This document shows, one piece after another, positions 8,666 through 17,699 of a stretch of DNA of 48,768 bases. The stretch comes from Acidobacteriota bacterium (lineage in GTDB: Bacteria; Acidobacteriota; Terriglobia; Acidiferrales; UBA7541). Location of the stretch: assembly GCA_003224085.1 (NCBI GenBank), contig QHYK01000112.1, positions 1-48,768 of the forward strand, given 5' to 3'. Under the pieces are notes generated by a model. The model ran no database searches. It saw only the letters and a list, made by a program, of their open reading frames with translations, and had not been told where the DNA came from. Numbering within the stretch: the stretch's first letter is position 1; the number at the start of each line of letters is the position of its first letter. Position numbers and translations under genes: made by a program.

Positions 8666-9892
8666 TCAGGCCCGATCGAGCAACAAGAACAACGCGAGAT
8701 AGCGCTTCAATTTTTGCGTGATAAGAAAATTCTCTTTGACGTGCTCGTGGCCATTTGCTCCGAGCTTGGCGGCGATCTCCGGATGCGACAGCAAAAAGCG
8801 AATTTGATAGGCGATGCCTTCCACGGAATGCGCCAGCAGGCCAGTGTGCTTATGAATGATTTGCGTGGGAATTCCTCCAACCGCCGAAGCCACGACCGGC
8901 TTCTTTTTCCAAAGCGCTTCCGAAACCGTCAAGCCAAAGCCTTCGCGCAAACTTTTCTGCACCACAATCGTGGAAGCGCGCTGGAGCGCGTTCACTTCCA
9001 GAGGCGCCCAGGCCGGCAGTTCGAGGATTTTAATGTCGGGATCCTGATCGGCCGCGCGCCGAACTTCCTTCAGAACGAGAACGCCCTCGGGATCGTCCGA
9101 GGCGCTGCCGCCCGCGAGGACGAGCTGGCAATCAAAGTACCGCTTCGCGATGCGATACGCGCGAATCACTCCCACGGGGTCCTTCAACCGATCGAAGCGC
9201 GAAATCTGCGTCAAGATCGGACGCTGAGGATCAATCTGATAGCGAAGGAGCACTTGGGCGATGAATTCCGAATCCAGCGGACAATTTTTCTCGGAAAGCG
9301 GGTCGATGGCCGGATAGAAAAGATATTGCGGAATGGGGAGCTGGCGGGAAAATTCGGGAGAAGAGAACATGGCTCCGTCGTAGCGCGAGACAAATTGTTC
9401 CAGAAACTCCCAGACGGCGCGGTTCGGGCGCGACAAGTCAATGTGACACCGCCACACCCAGTGATTCGGGCCGGGCTTTCGCGCATCAACCAGCGCCGCG
9501 GGCTGCAGGTCGTGAACGACCACGAATTCGGCGTCGAGCGGAAGGGTCGCGCGGTTCTGTTCGTTGTAACGGAGGAAGATCTCAAAATCTTTGGGCTTCG
9601 CAAGATAAGGCTCCCCATGGAGCGCATTGTGGAACGATTTCGTTACGTCGAAGAATTCCTCGTCGCCTTTCATCACGTCCCAGCGGATGCCGAGTTCGAG
9701 CTCTTCCGCGAGCGGCACCAGGTGGTTGAGAATTTCCGCAACGCCGCCTCCAACCGCGGTAGAGTTAATCATCTCGACGCTGCGGCCCCGCAGCGGCTTC
9801 GCTAGCGCGCGCAATTCTTCGATCTCGCCTGCGCCGACCACCTCCGAATAATTTTCCAGCGGGATGCGGTTCGCCGCCAAAGTTTTCGTCAT
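8666..9892 (-). CDS. treT: TreT-like GT4 glycosyltransferase (trehalose synthase type)
   Basis: The 408 residues form a GT-B enzyme: an N-terminal half with 'INSTAVGGGVAEILNHLVPL' (42-61), which is diagnostic for the TreT / trehalose-glycosyltransferring-synthase branch of GT4, HDLQP (127-131), WRCHID (147-152), then the donor half with SRFDRLKDP (231-239), 'LVLAGGSASDDPEG', and the E-x7-E motif REGFGLTVSE (316-325). TreT makes trehalose in one step from NDP-glucose and glucose, or acts in reverse. It has AAGGAGAAAAGC before the ATG and overlaps the DUF5752-like gene by four bases, with the OtsA fusion upstream, which fits a trehalose role. Relatives make other glucosides, so the exact product is not certain. 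Confidence 0.8.
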   Translation of the reverse strand: MTKTLAANRIPLENYSEVVGAGEIEELRALAKPLRGRSVEMINSTAVGGGVAEILNHLVPLAEELELGIRWDVMKGDEEFFDVTKSFHNALHGEPYLAKPKDFEIFLRYNEQNRATLPLDAEFVVVHDLQPAALVDARKPGPNHWVWRCHIDLSRPNRAVWEFLEQFVSRYDGAMFSSPEFSRQLPIPQYLFYPAIDPLSEKNCPLDSEFIAQVLLRYQIDPQRPILTQISRFDRLKDPVGVIRAYRIAKRYFDCQLVLAGGSASDDPEGVLVLKEVRRAADQDPDIKILELPAWAPLEVNALQRASTIVVQKSLREGFGLTVSEALWKKKPVVASAVGGIPTQIIHKHTGLLAHSVEGIAYQIRFLLSHPEIAAKLGANGHEHVKENFLITQKLKRYLALFLLLDRA

Positions 9893-10566
9893 GCTTTTCT
9901 CCTTGTGCGGTCAATCAGACGGAGCAACTTGGCGCGCGCGCTGTCCAGCGTGTTCGTATAGACGTCAATGTGATTGATGCTGTCGGCGAGAGTTCGCAAG
10001 CCCAGGCTGCCGGAGAGCCAAACGGAAAAGTCATTGGTCTGGAGCTGGAGCCGCAATCGCGAAGAGATGAAGTGATAATAGAAACCGGCATGGCTCAGGT
10101 GCTCGAGAGCTTCGCGGAACTCATCGAGATTGCGCGCGCTGCGGCCAAGGGGCATGGTCACTTCGACGCTTTCGCAGAAATGGAAGCGTTCGAGACCCGA
10201 TTGCGTTGCAAGCTGCGGCTGGGCGGCGCAGAAATCCCGGACCACGCGGCAAAGATCGCTGCGAAGCGCAGCAATCGATGTGTAATCGCGAATGTCGAGC
10301 GCCGCGAGGTGCTCCGCGAGGTCGTTCCGGTTGGTGGAGGACAGCGTCCATTGCGCGAAATCGTTGGAAAAACCCTCGGTGAGAAAGTGATGGACGCCAA
10401 GGGTCTGAAACGTGTGATGAAAAATGGAGGCGTCGCTGCAATGTTCGAGCCCGGTCAGCAATTCCGCGATGTTTCCGGCCGATTGATTTCCTATGCGCGT
10501 GAGGTAGGAGGCGGTTACGAATTCAAACGGTGCTTCGGCGGCGTTCAAAGCAGAAACCCTCTCCAC
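9889..10566 (-). CDS. DUF5752-like protein of unknown function
   Basis: A 225-residue, mostly helical soluble protein without signal peptide or membrane segment. Segments such as 'IFHHTFQTLGVHHFL', 'YDFAxWxxSxTNRNDLAEHLAALD' (here NDFAQWTLSSTNRNDLAEHL) and 'AGFYYHFISSRLRLQ...FSVWLSGSLGL' show an internal similarity: two copies of a 'His-rich helix then W(T/L)S...LA' pattern, near residues 49-90 and 160-205. I recall DUF5752 proteins accompanying trehalose-type glycosyltransferases, and the four-base overlap with the TreT-like gene supports a joint function, perhaps as a regulatory or scaffold subunit. The frame's first codon is GTG at 10566 with a poor ribosome site, so the start is uncertain. 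Function is not known. Confidence 0.65.
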   Translation of the reverse strand: MERVSALNAAEAPFEFVTASYLTRIGNQSAGNIAELLTGLEHCSDASIFHHTFQTLGVHHFLTEGFSNDFAQWTLSSTNRNDLAEHLAALDIRDYTSIAALRSDLCRVVRDFCAAQPQLATQSGLERFHFCESVEVTMPLGRSARNLDEFREALEHLSHAGFYYHFISSRLRLQLQTNDFSVWLSGSLGLRTLADSINHIDVYTNTLDSARAKLLRLIDRTRRKA

Positions 10567-10638: not shown

Positions 10639-12930
10639 TTACGCTTCGGCGCGTTCGGCCAGCTCGATGCGAATCTCGGTCAGGTCGGAAAGGAGATGGG
10701 CGGCCCAGCGATAAACATTGTGCTGCCGCACCACATGGCGCATCCGCTGCATGCGCTCGGCCTGCTCGTCTTCGGGCATTTCCAGCGCGCGGTGAATGGC
10801 TCGCGCGACCTGCGCAATATCGTAGGGATTCACGAGCAGCGCGTCAGACAGTTCCTGGGACGCGCCTGCAAACGTGCTCAGGATCAGCACCCCGCGCTCG
10901 TCTTCCCGGGAAGCCACGAACTCCTTGGCCACCAGATTCATCCCGTCGTGCAGGGAAGTGACCATGCAAAGGGAAGCAGCTTTATAAAAGCGCGAAATTT
11001 CTTCATGCGAATGATGCTTTTTGCGAAACACGATGGGCTTCCACCGCGACGTTTGGAGGCGCGCGTTGATGCGGTCCGCTTCAGAGCTGACTTCGTCGAG
11101 GAAATTCCTGTAACGCTCGATATCGGTACGGCTGGGCGCGCCAATCTGCACAAACGTAAATCGCTGCTGGTAGGCCGGGTTCAATTCAAGAAATCTTTCC
11201 AGTGCGCGGAAGCGCTCCAGGATTCCTTTCGTGTAGTCAATGCGATCCACGCCCACGCCCATGTGCGTGGCCTCGATTCCCGTGTCGTCGAGCAAGGCCG
11301 CGCGCAGCCCGTTGATATTTACCAAATCGTGGTCGGGCAGCGAATTCTCCGAAAACGCCACACTAATCGGGTAGGGTCGCACGCGCGTGACGTGACCTTG
11401 GCGGCTTACGGCGAAGCGATCCCATTCCGTGAGCGCTTCCAGGGCGCGGTCCACGGTTTCCAGAAAATTGTTGCAATGCGTTTGGATATGGAAACCAATC
11501 AGGTCCGCGCCCAGCAATCCTTCGATGAGCTCGCGCTGCCAGGGGCAAATCCCGAAGACTTCTGCGTTGGGCCAGGGGATGTGCCAAAAAATCGCCACAC
11601 GCGCGTCTGGGCGGACGTCTTTGACCATGCGCGGAACCAATGCAAGGTGATAATCCTGAACAAGCACAATCGGCGAATCCACCTCCGCCATCTCCTGCCG
11701 AACGACGTCGGCAAAGCGCTGGTTAATCCGTTGGTATTGCAGCCAATCTTCCGGGCGGAAAATCGGCCGTGTATGGGCGGTGTGACAAAGCGGCCAGAGA
11801 CCTTCATTCGAAAATCCATCATAGTAGCCTTTGGTTTCTTCGCCGGTGAGCCAGACGCGGCGCAACGTGTAACTCGGATGATCGGGAGGAACGCGGAGCC
11901 GATCGTGGGCATCCGCCACTTCGCGGTCGGCGCTGCCAGAGCCGTTCGCGACCCACGTGCCATTGCACGCCAGCAAAACGGGTTCGATAGCCGTGACCAC
12001 GCCGCTGGCAGGCACGATCATTTTGATGGTTTTTTCTCTTCCGTCGTAGACGTGCATGTAGGGTTCGCGGTTCGAAACGACGAAGAGAGGTTGGTCCTGA
12101 AGCCGGTCTCGCAGGCTGACGCGCAACCGTTCCGCAGTCCATAGAGACGCATTGGAGTCGCGAAGGCGGGCTTCTACTTCCGCAGCCGCCCTTGCGGAAT
12201 GCAAATCTCTGGCCAGGTGCGTAACTTCATGATGCAATTGCTCCAAGATTTCGCCTTGCACAAAAGCAGGAGGCGGATTGGGCTGCCCTGTGCGCAGAGT
12301 GCGCAGCCATTTTGCGGTACGAGTCAGCGGCCCGGTAAACGTCCAGCGCACCATCACTAGCGCGAGGCCGCTAATCAGGAGTGTTTGTATCAGCGCAGTC
12401 AGAAGCGCATCGCGGAGAGTGCGGGTGAGCTGCATTTCAATGTAACTGATGTCATGGATCAGGACGAGGGCGCCGGCGACTTCGTCGTTGCGATGCAGCG
12501 GTAAGGCGTATACATGCACAGGAACGGCGTCGCTTGTCTGTGTCGAAGAGGTCTCCTCGGGCGGAAGAAATTCGCTGACACCTTTGTTCTCGTGGGTGGC
12601 TTTTATTATCGCGGTTGGATGGAGCGGCAAGGCCGGCCCCAGTCCCGGCGTAATTGCCAGTGCGTGACCCGCCGCATCGTAAATGGCGATTCCTTTGATG
12701 CGCTCGCGCTGCCCGTAACGCTCCACCAGGCGCTGCAGGTTTTTTTCCTGGCCCCGCTCGAGCAGCCGTTCGACGCTTTCCTGAAGGCTGTCGGCGAGGA
12801 TCTCTGCGCGGCGGTCGAGGTCATTGCGCAGAATTCGCCGCTCGTTCCTCACCTGATAACCAGCAAAGAGCAAAGACACACTAGCGACGCTCACGATCAG
12901 GGGCAGGACGATTTTCAAAGTCGTGCGCAT
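10639..12930 (-). CDS. otsA: Membrane sensor / HAMP / trehalose-6-phosphate synthase (GT20) fusion
   Basis: The 763 residues (ATG 12930, chosen for GAGGG six bases upstream; a TTG at 12942 would add four) contain: membrane helix 1 (about 6-24); an extracytoplasmic segment (about 25-175); membrane helix 2 (about 176-196); a HAMP-like linker with the conserved Pro (GPL) and Glu (GEI) at about 197-245; a coiled helix; and a full GT20 domain (about 277-756). Catalytic positions of OtsA are all present: Arg288, the glycine loop ASGVV, the [16 protein letters not shown] substrate loop, Asp426 in VQDYHL, HIPWP, Arg563 and Lys568 in [10 protein letters not shown], Asp662 and Glu670 in [11 protein letters not shown]. 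Ordinary OtsA is a soluble protein of about 470 residues. The product should be trehalose-6-phosphate, made at the membrane under control of an external or membrane signal (inferred). No OtsB follows. Confidence 0.88.
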
Positions 12931-13398: not shown

Positions 13399-13922
13399 AA
13401 ATTTCTCTCCTATTATTCTATTCAGTTTTGACCGGGGCGGACAAGAGGGCACGAGAAGAACCAATCGAGGCGTAACGCTCGGGCAGGCGATAAGGTCTTA
13501 AGAATCAGCTCAGTACACGGCAGTGCGGATAGTTGCTTCTTAATGGTGCGTAAGTACTAAAACTATGAAAATTTTGCTCTTGGCCTAGATGTTCTCCGCG
13601 TTCGGTTTTGGGGTTTTGCGCGCATAGTTTCAGGAAACCAGCCTGAAGAGTGCAGTCGAAGAAATCCCGCTACAGAAAAAACAATGGCCTCCCCTTGGAA
13701 CGTAATTTTTAGACAACGAATCGATATCTTCGTATTTACTTGCCATTTAGTAAAGCATGGATGCTATTTCTAGCGTCGAGACATTTAGGTCAATATCGTA
13801 CAGTTGTTGTGGGTGTTGAGACTACACACCTAGCAGAAAAAGTCCTATGGCTATTGCCTTGCTGTCCCATCATCATAGGATCTCCACACAAGTTTGCGTT
13901 TGATGTAGCGTACGGGGGGGAA
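13399..13922. other. 524-bp AT-richer gap before the receptor gene
   Basis: This gap between divergent genes is visibly richer in A+T than its surroundings from about 13500 to 13920. It must hold the promoters of the small exported protein (leftward) and of the TonB-dependent receptor (rightward). The receptor frame is open to 13740, but codons before 13923 do not look coding and a good start with a purine run exists at 13923. I see no RNA gene, and no confident promoter could be assigned. Confidence 0.5.
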
Positions 13923-16900
13923 ATGAGGAACCTGAGGGGGTTTGTTCTTGGTGTTCTCTTTTTGTTGCTTGTTTCGTTGCCGCTGAAAGCGCAGCAGTTT
14001 TCCGCTCTCAGCGGCGTCGTTTCGGATAAATCCGGAGGCGTCATCTCCGGCGTCACCGTGGAACTCACGAACACCCAATTGGGCCTGCACGAGACCACGA
14101 CCACGCACGATTTGGGGTTTTATCAATTTCTCCGTCAGACGCCGGCACAAGGTTACTCGCTGACATTCACGAAAGAGGGTTTTGCGAAGCTCGTCGTAAA
14201 TAGCATTTCCCTTGGTGTAAGTACGACGGAAACTCGCAACGTCAGCCTCGAGGTGGGATCGGTGACGCAATCCATCAGTGTGGAAGCTTCCGGCGAAGCC
14301 ACGCTGAATGCGACGGACGCCACCATCGGAAACGTGATCGATGCCAGAGCGGTGAGCGAGTTGCCGATCCAATTCCGCCTAGACGCCGCGAACTTGATGA
14401 AACTCCAAGCCGGTGTAAATGATGCCGGCTCGATTACCGGGGCCCGTAGCGACCAAGGGAACATCACGCTGGACGGCTTAGACATAAACGATCAGACCAC
14501 TGGCCGAGCGTTTACTTCTACGATCCCCGTTTCCATCGACGCGCTGCAGGAAGTGCGAACGGTCACGGCCGGCGAGACGGCCGATTATGGGCGCAGCAGC
14601 GGCGGCGGCATCAATTTAGTCACCAAGAGCGGGTCGAACAGCTGGCATGGCAACCTGCGGGAAAACAACAGAAACACGCTTTTTGCGGCCAACGAGTGGT
14701 TCAACAATCGCAGCCACGTGGCGCGTGCGCCGCTCATCCGCAACCAGTTTGGCGGTAATGTCAGCGGCCCTGTTTTGAAGGATAAGGTGTTTTTCTTTTT
14801 CGACTATGAAGGGCTTCGCCGCTCCTCCAGCAGCCAAAACGTGAGAGCGGTTCCCACGCCACAGTTCCGGGCCGGGGAGTTAGGCTATATTAATAGCAAT
14901 ACGGGCTGCGACGGCACGGCGCGTTTCACGAATCAGCCGAGTTGCATCACATACCTCACACCCAATCAAGTTGCGAGTATTGACCCGCAAAATGTTGGGG
15001 ACAACACCGCCCTCCTCAACTTCGTCAATGGCCGCTATCCCAGCACGATTAACGATCCAGGCGCTGCCGGAGACGGAATCAACACAGACGGCTTTCTTTT
15101 TATCGCTCCCGTGCACGAGTCGGAAAATGTTTACACTGGGCGAATTGATTATAACCTGAGCTCCAGGCACAAATTGTTCCTCCGGGCGAGCGTGGGGCGC
15201 CATGGAGTGGATGATGATTTCAACGTCGCCATTGAGCAGTTTCCGGGAGATCCTGTACCCGACCTTCGAGACACTTTCAATGGGTATGCGTCGTCCATTG
15301 GATGGACCTGGACAGCGACCCCGAACGTCATCAGCCAGTTCTCGGCGGGGCTTGTTCGCGCCATTCTGGATTTCCCGACACGCCCAGCACCCACGTTTCC
15401 GAATTCGTTCTTTTTCACTCCCAATATTACGGGTCCTTATCTAGGCTCATCCTCTCAGTCGCGGAACGTGCCCGTTCCGGAGTTTCGCGAGGGTTTGACC
15501 TGGATCAAAGGCAAGCACGCCATGGATTTTGGCGGCGATTTGAAGCTGATCCGCCAAATCAGTTCCCTGAAAAACGACTTCAACTTCATTGGCATTGGCC
15601 TTGGCGGCCAGATTCAGTCCCTTGATACAGCCCCGCAGAATCAACTGCGGCCGTCAGACATCAATTCCGATCCCTCGGCCGTCGGGAATTGGGACAATTT
15701 CTTCCCGTTCATGCTGGGGCGCTACTCTCAAGTGTTCAGCAATTTCAATTACGACAAAGCGGGAAATCCCTTCGCCAATGGAACGGGAAAGAAGCGCGAC
15801 TACAACTACAATGAGTTCGAATTTTATGGTCAGGACTCCTGGAAGCTGCGTTCTGACCTAACCTTGACCTATGGATTGCGCTACCTCTTCCATACCGTCC
15901 CTTACGAGGTCAATGGCTTTCAATCCGTTCCGTCGGTCAACGAGAACACCTACCTAGCGGCAAGAATCAATGCGGCCGCCCAGGGCCTCAGCGGGATCAG
16001 TACGGTTCCCATCATGAGCTACAGCTTGGGCGGGTCGGCGAACAGCGCCCCGGGCTATTACAAGCCCGACTACAAGGACTTCGGGCCACGTTTAGGCTTG
16101 GCTTACAATCCCGGATTCCGCAGTGGTCTGCTTGGCAGTCTTTTCGGCGACCGCAAATCCACGGTTCGTTTGGGCGGGGCGATTCTTTACGATCGCATCA
16201 GTGGCGGCGCAAGTTTTGGGCTCGATCAAAACACTTTCCTCTTCGATTCAGGAGCAAACAATCCGCTTGGCGTTCCCAATGACCCCATCACATCGCTTAA
16301 GACCGACCCGCGATTTAACGGTCTTAGCACCAACTTGCCGCCATTTCCCGCTCCGCCTAGCAGCAAGCCTCCGGTCCAGCCGAATGTTTTTGGCGGCCAA
16401 CCGCTCGGCCTGGCACTTGGCGGATTCCCTTCATTTTTCCAGTTCGACCGAAATACCAAGAGTCCGTATGCGACGATTCTCAACTTTGGGATCCAGCGCG
16501 AGTTACCTGGGAATTTATTGCTGGAGGCAGGCTACGTCGGACGAATGGGCCGCAGACTCTTAGCGGTAGGCGACGCGGCCACGGTGACGGATTTCAAGGA
16601 CAATGCCTCCGCCACAACACTGCGGCAGGGCTTCGCGGCATTGCAGCAGCAAGTCTTGAACCGGGTAAGCTTGCTTAATATCGTAAACGCACCATGGTTC
16701 GAGGATCAGATGGGCGGTACTGCCAATTGCCAGGCCTTCTCTCAAGCTAATTTCCATATTGCCCTGAGTTGTTCGCAGATCGCCGTTGGCCTCAACCGGC
16801 GTCTGTTTCGCGTAGGCGACGTATCGGATACGGTTCAAGCCCTTTTTGCAAGCGGGTTTCTGGACTTCAACGTTGGTCTCCCGGCGCAAACAGGCGCCAA

Positions 16901-17699
16901 CGGCTATATAGGCAACTACGCTGCATCGGACTACAACGCTTTGCTGGTCAGTCTTCGTAAGCGCGTATCGAACGGTCTTCAATTCGATTTGAATTACACT
17001 TATTCCCATTCCATTGACAACCTATCGGAAATCACAAACAACTACGTGGCGTATACCAGCTCGGGCGCCGGCCTCGTGTGTGAGCTTGATAATCTTCGCA
17101 TCTGCCGCGCGAGCTCCGATTTCGATGCCCGCCACACCGTCAACTTGAATTACGTTTATGACCTTCCTCTAGGTCAAGGCAGGCATTTCCTGCATGGTGC
17201 TCCCGGATGGATGAACGCAATTGTAGGCGGATGGAGCACCTCGGGCATTGTTACCTGGAGGACGGGTTATCCATTCACTGTTCGTACCAACTCTTTCCCG
17301 ACGGCCTTCACGCTGGACGCGCCTGCAGTTCTGTTGAACGCGGCTGGTCTCAAACCAGGCATCCACACGGACGCAGTCGGAAATTTACAATACTTCTCCA
17401 GCCAGCCTGCTGCCATTGCCGCTGTTGGCTTTCCTTTCGGGGGTGGCACGGGGACTCGCAATGAAACTCGGGGACCAGGATTTTCTTCAGTGGATATGGG
17501 CTTGTGGAAGGTTGTGAAAGTGCCAGGATCCGAACGACAGCAGTTCATCCTTCGCCTGGACACTTTCAACACGTTCAACCATCCCGTGTTCAACGGGCCC
17601 GCATCAGCGACTCTTTTCGACACCAGTCAGTTCGGCATCATCACATCCACGGCTAGCGCTCCGCGCGTGCTGCAGGTTTCGCTGCGTTACGAGTTCTAA
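13923..17699 (+). CDS. Oar-like TonB-dependent outer-membrane receptor with carboxypeptidase-like N-domain
   Basis: From ATG 13923 (after a GGGGGGGAA run) the product has 1258 residues. It begins with a signal peptide (MRNLRGFVLGVLFLLLVSLP, cleaved after KAQ), then a carboxypeptidase regulatory-like beta domain (about 28-115, starting SALSGVVSDKSGGVISGV), a plug domain (about 120-230, with QGNITLDGLDIND and DYGRSSGGGINLVTKSG), and a long barrel ending in ...VSLRYEF with C-terminal phenylalanine. This Oar-like architecture is the hallmark expanded receptor family of Acidobacteriota, thought to import polysaccharide fragments or other large substrates with TonB energy. The substrate is unknown. 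It is monocistronic, with a strong terminator right after it; a TonB-C protein is encoded convergently downstream. Confidence 0.92.
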   Translation: MRNLRGFVLGVLFLLLVSLPLKAQQFSALSGVVSDKSGGVISGVTVELTNTQLGLHETTTTHDLGFYQFLRQTPAQGYSLTFTKEGFAKLVVNSISLGVSTTETRNVSLEVGSVTQSISVEASGEATLNATDATIGNVIDARAVSELPIQFRLDAANLMKLQAGVNDAGSITGARSDQGNITLDGLDINDQTTGRAFTSTIPVSIDALQEVRTVTAGETADYGRSSGGGINLVTKSGSNSWHGNLRENNRNTLFAANEWFNNRSHVARAPLIRNQFGGNVSGPVLKDKVFFFFDYEGLRRSSSSQNVRAVPTPQFRAGELGYINSNTGCDGTARFTNQPSCITYLTPNQVASIDPQNVGDNTALLNFVNGRYPSTINDPGAAGDGINTDGFLFIAPVHESENVYTGRIDYNLSSRHKLFLRASVGRHGVDDDFNVAIEQFPGDPVPDLRDTFNGYASSIGWTWTATPNVISQFSAGLVRAILDFPTRPAPTFPNSFFFTPNITGPYLGSSSQSRNVPVPEFREGLTWIKGKHAMDFGGDLKLIRQISSLKNDFNFIGIGLGGQIQSLDTAPQNQLRPSDINSDPSAVGNWDNFFPFMLGRYSQVFSNFNYDKAGNPFANGTGKKRDYNYNEFEFYGQDSWKLRSDLTLTYGLRYLFHTVPYEVNGFQSVPSVNENTYLAARINAAAQGLSGISTVPIMSYSLGGSANSAPGYYKPDYKDFGPRLGLAYNPGFRSGLLGSLFGDRKSTVRLGGAILYDRISGGASFGLDQNTFLFDSGANNPLGVPNDPITSLKTDPRFNGLSTNLPPFPAPPSSKPPVQPNVFGGQPLGLALGGFPSFFQFDRNTKSPYATILNFGIQRELPGNLLLEAGYVGRMGRRLLAVGDAATVTDFKDNASATTLRQGFAALQQQVLNRVSLLNIVNAPWFEDQMGGTANCQAFSQANFHIALSCSQIAVGLNRRLFRVGDVSDTVQALFASGFLDFNVGLPAQTGANGYIGNYAASDYNALLVSLRKRVSNGLQFDLNYTYSHSIDNLSEITNNYVAYTSSGAGLVCELDNLRICRASSDFDARHTVNLNYVYDLPLGQGRHFLHGAPGWMNAIVGGWSTSGIVTWRTGYPFTVRTNSFPTAFTLDAPAVLLNAAGLKPGIHTDAVGNLQYFSSQPAAIAAVGFPFGGGTGTRNETRGPGFSSVDMGLWKVVKVPGSERQQFILRLDTFNTFNHPVFNGPASATLFDTSQFGIITSTASAPRVLQVSLRYEF

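Follow-up and report, generated by a model that had tools for sequence, protein, structure and literature searches.

Trehalose synthesis is generally regarded as controlled at the level of gene expression and by metabolites. A gene located in the window, as the whole stretch of 48,768 nucleotides of DNA analyzed here is called, raises the question of whether an enzyme of this kind could be controlled from outside the cell: its product joins a membrane sensor of a type usual for signalling enzymes directly to an enzyme that probably synthesizes the precursor of the stress sugar trehalose. If this is true, the cell exterior would set sugar production directly through a widespread receptor-shaped synthase, and a biosynthetic glycosyltransferase would join the outputs of Cache/HAMP-type receptors. 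No paper describing a receptor-GT20 or exchanger-GT20 fusion was found in the open-licence literature by title and start of abstract. The features of the locus are as follows.

10639..12930, minus strand: gene with the order TM-Cache-TM-HAMP-like-GT20, 763 amino acids (single open reading frame)
12859..12918, minus strand: first transmembrane helix (TM1), residues ~5-24 (hydropathy; helix 2-58/59 in the models)
12451..12849, minus strand: Cache-type extracytoplasmic domain, residues ~28-160 (PDB profile match, Foldseek, VIA and a Pfam dCache_1 match below cut-off)
12349..12405, minus strand: second transmembrane helix (TM2), residues ~176-194 (hydropathy; helix 162-213 in the models)
12157..12345, minus strand: HAMP-like linker and following helix, residues ~196-258 (hhalign, conservation)
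12100..12141, minus strand: entry helix, residues 264-277 (alignment, model, joint in relatives)
10678..12084, minus strand: GT20 domain, residues 283-751 (Pfam, structure matches, residue check)
9889..10566, minus strand: DUF5752 protein, downstream neighbour (Pfam 178 bits; recurrent neighbour)
8666..9892, minus strand: TreT-like GT4 glycosyltransferase, downstream neighbour (Pfam TreT_GT1 172 bits)

One reading frame, recurrent across genomes

The gene starts with an ATG at 12930, five bases downstream of a Shine-Dalgarno-like GAGGG, and its stop codon ends at 10639 with no internal stops; the coordinates agree exactly with the original prediction. The order of parts claimed there was recovered as well by hydropathy, profiles, predicted fold and Pfam. 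Neither of the two flaws that it had allowed for, a lack of any HAMP or TM prediction in the N-terminal part and an assembly error joining two genes near residue 260, was encountered: TM helices and a HAMP-like module were found, and the joint recurs widely.

The frequency of the architecture, which the prediction had proposed to survey, was assessed in a sample of 297 genomes of the phylum, 106 of which encode GT20 above the cut-off; the 111 loci inspected in these 106 genomes (L001-L111) are part of all GT20 places. The two-TM fusion is present in at least 31 of the 297, including the genome of the window, at 34 loci (three genomes carry two each), a count in which L043, L056, L064 and L094 were assigned by eye and from which L070 was left out. 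L070 encodes its sensor and GT20 parts in separate frames, a copy of the fusion that is split or carries a frameshift. A profile of 28 aligned members detected at least 586 relatives in genome contigs. Among the best 80, which were kept, 74 have at least two predicted TM helices before GT20, and the distance from the first to the last helix is 145-185 residues in 71. As labelled, the carriers among these best 80 of at least 586 belong to Acidobacteria, Nitrospirae, Omnitrophota, Elusimicrobia, Methylomirabilis, Rokuibacteriota, Gemmatimonadetes, Verrucomicrobia, Bacteroidales, Niastella, a Deltaproteobacterium, Edwardsbacteria and several Patescibacteria groups. Contamination is possible among them since nearly all are labelled MAG; beyond plain MAGs, the carriers include the isolate Niastella soli, one single-cell Omnitrophus and one complete Elusimicrobiota chromosome from a metagenome.

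Selection on the parts of the gene was estimated against three relatives, with synonymous change near saturation in all comparisons. The nearest one (L179, 86% identity) gave dN/dS values of 0.061 (linker), 0.087 (Cache domain), 0.293 (TM2) and 0.049 (GT20); the more distant L114 gave 0.239, 0.276, 0.157 and 0.057 for the same parts. The comparison with L113 gave 0.094 for GT20 and no linker value, because synonymous change was saturated. Every part with a dN/dS value is thus under purifying selection, and the constraint on the linker equals that on the enzyme in the closest comparison only, not against L114.

The source is a draft assembly of 159 contigs, in which an assembly error or a chance read-through might have fused two genes. 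The probability of this is negligible, as the same joint occurs throughout the phylum sample and in loci labelled as many other phyla, the isolate and the complete chromosome named above carry the fusion, and dN/dS stays below 0.3 in all parts for which it could be computed. Recurrence and selection together rule out an assembly error or frame artefact, and the fusion of a membrane sensor module and GT20 in a single frame is real.

A mobile origin was considered and rejected. Searches of plasmids by tblastn returned 359 records, all with less than 80% query coverage, and the ten matches listed start at residue 264 or later; the four phage records all start at 282 or later.

The membrane module and its linker

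Hydropathy detected two membrane helices separated by ~135-150 residues, in accordance with the pair of helices flanking about 150 extracytoplasmic residues that had been predicted (TM residues are counted here from the ATG; the hydropathy run began at an upstream TTG, with numbering four higher). Net charge is +2 ahead of TM1, -3 between the helices and +4 past TM2, a pattern that fits an outside location of the loop.

The loop has a predicted Cache fold. Pfam dCache_1 matches the protein with a score below cut-off, and NCBIfam gives partial matches, far below cut-off, to the kinase models WalK (weak, E 2.7e-7), CreC and AtoS. When 33 related N-terminal modules were combined in a profile, this matched the outer domain of WalK in the PDB at E 5.8e-5. 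The predicted Cache domain resembles the same outer domain in Foldseek (E 4.8e-7) and in VIA (Z 15.4, rmsd 2.5 over 139 residues); three crystal structures of WalK/YycG outer domains score Z 14.9-15.4 against the predicted module, followed by sensor domains of other kinases and of chemoreceptors at Z 12-14. The likeness extends to the whole module: residues 1-262, as modelled by AlphaFold2 from 33 sequences (mean pLDDT 83.7), align with WalK from TM1 through HAMP over 254 of 262 residues (VIA Z 16.7, rmsd 3.1; Foldseek E 3.4e-11), the WalK entry matched at this length being itself an integrative model. In the full-length model (64 sequences, mean pLDDT 87.4, pTM 0.67), helix 162-213 is separated by a connector from the helices 227-258 and 266-277, after which the GT20 domain begins. 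The predicted TM-Cache-TM-HAMP fold is therefore shared with the histidine kinase WalK/YycG, and the output differs: a Pfam scan of the protein (E up to 1) detected no kinase family after the linker, where GT20 stands instead.

A search of the same genome with the sensor profile matched the gene itself, one weak hit in a 597-aa frame in which Pfam also detects HAMP (E 0.002), and a further sequence with a stop inside (E 0.44). Elsewhere in this genome, at C88:6047-8134, a 1879-aa frame has eight HAMP matches spaced about 90 residues apart.

HAMP domains consist of two amphipathic helices and a connector placed after a TM helix, with a conserved Pro and Glu. The predicted models show this arrangement past TM2, with helices that extend to residue 213 and resume at 227, and both Pro201 and Glu235 are nearly invariant among 64 aligned members. 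An hhalign comparison of the linker profile to 12 HAMPs encoded in the same genome gave a match at 94.4% (E 9.3e-8), and a control consisting of TM1 and its following helix matched at 1.6%. In the PDB search with the 33-module profile, the HAMP of Af1503 was found at the expected place with a value that is not significant (E 0.084). The Pfam HAMP model matched neither the window protein (E up to 10) nor the sensor module (E up to 1), and detected seven of the 33 related modules (best E 0.012). The HAMP-like linker of the original prediction is thus upheld by the controlled profile-profile comparison and the predicted WalK-like fold, and because Pfam does not detect HAMP, the segment is labelled only HAMP-like. 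According to the alignment, one two-TM clade has a gap of seven residues in the first HAMP-like helix and another of seven in the next; here the match to HAMPs is lost (4.5%) and the likeness to the window's linker is kept (91.3%).

The linker is followed by the entry helix, in which Trp264 and Leu269 are invariant among the 64 aligned members, and this helix leads to the first strand of GT20 and then to Arg288, the counterpart of E. coli Arg9. Several stand-alone members have a helix-like stretch starting with Trp-Thr or Trp-Asn before a conserved Ser-Asn-Arg-Glu-Pro-Tyr, and a homologue on an Aminobacter plasmid aligns with the window protein from residue 264. For these two reasons, the Trp264 helix is taken to mark the joint, ahead of which the sensor has probably been attached.

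The glycosyltransferase domain, its neighbours and its likely product

The search for a GT20 domain proposed at the outset gave a Pfam Glyco_transf_20 match of 393.7 bits (gathering threshold 32.5) that spans profile positions 4-472 of 473. The closest structures are solved trehalose-6-phosphate synthases, whose GT-B fold was matched with a Foldseek E of 8.3e-36 and a TM-score of 0.91 on 5jio. Eleven substrate residues of E. coli OtsA are listed in the available text of a published study (PMC1769515), and these were located using the OtsA sequence of MG1655. Ten are kept (Arg9, Gly22, Tyr76, Trp85, Asp130, His154, Arg262, Arg300, Asp361 and Glu369), as is Lys267 in the same numbering. The eleventh, Trp40, has no certain place: E. 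coli OtsA has Trp at mature positions 38 and 41, of which the former is kept (Trp326 in the window protein) and the latter is replaced by Asn. At the position of this second Trp of the E. coli Trp-Phe-Gly-Trp motif, 53 of 64 aligned subfamily rows have His, and 35 of 37 other GT20 rows have Trp. The claim that every catalytic position is intact therefore holds for ten of the eleven listed residues and is in doubt for Trp40, which would be Asn if it corresponds to mature 41. A dead enzyme is ruled out by the conservation of the listed residues save the uncertain Trp.

Curated family models place the domain at some distance from the known synthases. It scores 431.3 bits with NCBIfam TIGR02400 (OtsA; cut-off 564.85) and 495.1 with PRK14501 (OtsA-OtsB; cut-off 634), and all seven relatives that were scanned, including an exchanger fusion, also miss both cut-offs; for this reason the protein is assigned to a divergent GT20 subfamily. 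The glucosylglycerol-phosphate synthase model scores 313 bits, lower than the OtsA model.

Downstream, the TreT-like gene overlaps the DUF5752 gene by 4 bases, and its product reaches 387 bits with NCBIfam TreT_Thcocales, below the cut-off of 775. Upstream, on the other strand, 13740-17699 encodes a large outer-membrane receptor that contains a carboxypeptidase regulatory-like domain. The neighbourhood was compared at 114 loci labelled two-TM (112 distinct after removal of two duplicates), which include the best 80 of at least 586 relatives, all given the two-TM label as a set; the following counts have this composition. OtsB was detected with a home-made profile (fused phosphatase halves and E. 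coli OtsB, one iteration), and loci ending at contig edges were scored as lacking it. It lies on the same strand within 4.5 kb at 68 of the 112 distinct loci, and near 18 of 33 GT20 rows labelled soluble. DUF5752 adjoins 39 and a TreT-like gene 38 of the 114. Both occur in the absence of OtsB in the window and at 10 other distinct loci, and none of the three is present at 33 of the 114, some of them at contig ends. OtsB (PF02358) was not found in the genome of the window, which is 97% complete. A member of the OtsB family is encoded in 26 of the 31 phylum genomes that carry the fusion; one of the five without it is 67% complete.

Synthesis of trehalose-6-phosphate is likely, not certain, and the best evidence for it is the OtsB gene adjoining so many relatives. 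Caution is advised by the missed cut-offs, the replaced Trp and the lack of OtsB in this genome, and the same three observations, together with the His found in most of the subfamily, speak for a transfer to another acceptor, by which a different phosphorylated or free glucoside would be formed. This alternative appears rather improbable: the residues equivalent to Arg9, Tyr76, Trp85 and Arg300 are kept, the OtsA model outscores that of glucosylglycerol-phosphate synthase, and the association of relatives with OtsB weakens the idea of a different product that its lack in one genome would suggest.

With trehalose-6-phosphate as the likely product, the protein can be compared with known systems. 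It shares the GT-B fold and the GT20 domain with the OtsA enzymes of E. coli and Mycobacterium thermoresistibile, keeps ten of the eleven substrate residues listed for E. coli, and differs in having a receptor module in front, one conserved Trp replaced and scores below the NCBIfam equivalog cut-offs. Its relatives share the OtsA/OtsB pathway through the adjacent phosphatase gene, whereas no OtsB was found in the window's genome. In a haloarchaeon, trehalose is assigned to OtsA and OtsB by genome analysis, according to the available text (PMC9995536). A helpful precedent, the TPSP-GT-MSC operon of Thermoproteus tenax, as far as described in the available text, also encodes a GT20 synthase with a GT4 protein, which activates the synthase, and with a membrane protein; in T. 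tenax the membrane channel is encoded by a gene of its own and the synthase forms a fusion with its phosphatase, whereas in the window a receptor-like membrane module is fused to the synthase and any role of the GT4 neighbour is hypothetical (PMC3634074). A regulatory role of a trehalose-6-phosphate synthase in osmotic stress is described for Arthrobacter OtsA, an osmotic stress sensor that, in contrast, acts by self-assembly and for which the abstract mentions no receptor module (PMC5685639).

Possible sensory control or membrane anchoring

A transmembrane receptor with a biosynthetic glycosyltransferase as its output is the reading favoured here, with a probability somewhat above even. The Cache domain would bind or sense something in the periplasm or envelope, and the resulting change would pass via TM2 and the HAMP-like linker of a putative dimer to the Trp264 helix, which runs straight to the first GT20 strand. 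This strand sits a few residues ahead of Arg288, which corresponds to the acceptor-phosphate residue Arg9 of OtsA, and of the active-site loop. The domain would most likely link NDP-glucose and glucose-6-phosphate into trehalose-6-phosphate, and an outside signal, possibly of envelope or osmotic nature as originally proposed, may thus set sugar production without gene control, the direction of control being presumed inward.

Several observations argue for such a receptor. The domain order and the joint recur, with the conserved TM spacing in 71 of the best 80 of at least 586 relatives; the N-terminal model matches WalK over nearly its entire length; the linker is HAMP-like by a controlled comparison; the output domain resembles solved synthases and keeps their residues; OtsB accompanies most distinct loci and most phylum genomes with the fusion; and against the nearest relative the linker has a dN/dS close to that of GT20. 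Counted against it are the lack of a Pfam HAMP match, the clade in which the HAMP likeness is lost, the weaker constraint on linker and Cache domain against L114, the missed OtsA cut-off, the OtsB gene absent from the genome, and the existence of Cache-less, stand-alone and single-TM relatives.

The relatives just mentioned make a serious rival of a plain membrane anchor, in which the module would only hold the synthase near a transporter or envelope machinery and would not gate it, since related proteins are linked to membranes by simpler means. L064, L190 and L191 have two TM helices, a short loop, a HAMP-like linker and GT20 with no Cache domain, eight proteins carry a Na+/H+ exchanger domain, the Aminobacter homologue has a single TM helix (by eye), and the same GT20 domain is found in stand-alone members that lack a membrane part. 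The linker is, moreover, four times less constrained than GT20 against L114. Mere anchoring, however, would require no Cache fold and no HAMP-like linker with near-invariant Pro and Glu, and against L179 it is TM2 that is least constrained, with the linker as constrained as the enzyme. Anchoring is accordingly regarded as the less probable explanation, with a chance of roughly one in four, and a gated receptor remains preferred.

The exchanger fusions (L054, L073, L078, L079, L084, L087, L088 and L090) occur in the same phylum, join a Pfam Na_H_Exchanger domain with ten TM helices to GT20 of the same subfamily, and pass both Pfam cut-offs in all eight cases; OtsB lies near four of them. In a quick tree of 105 rows with many weak branches, which served only for the clustering of architectures, they form together with four soluble members a clade apart from the two-TM fusions (two-TM labels were set by hand for L043, L056, L064, L094 and 30 profile-search loci, and L070 was labelled soluble). 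The separate fusion of the same subfamily to an exchanger suggests that this enzyme was coupled to membrane inputs on more than one occasion, and such repeated fusions make membrane-to-metabolism control directly testable. The Aminobacter aminovorans relative, encoded on plasmid pAA02 (L228 3782-5599), has no Cache or HAMP-like part and stands after genes for a GT4 protein and an amylo-alpha-1,6-glucosidase.

Receptor diguanylate cyclases have an arrangement comparable to that of a receptor-type synthase. By analogy with them, trehalose-6-phosphate could be a signal and not just an osmolyte precursor, with OtsB as its off-switch where present and the DUF5752 and TreT-like proteins as candidate receivers where OtsB was not found; this is proposed as a long shot. 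No paper naming DUF5752 was found in the open-licence literature. The family recurs near GT20 and a TreT-like gene, and among 14 control genomes it was matched only in Sulfolobus acidocaldarius, whereas TreT_GT1 was matched in this organism and in Thermotoga maritima.
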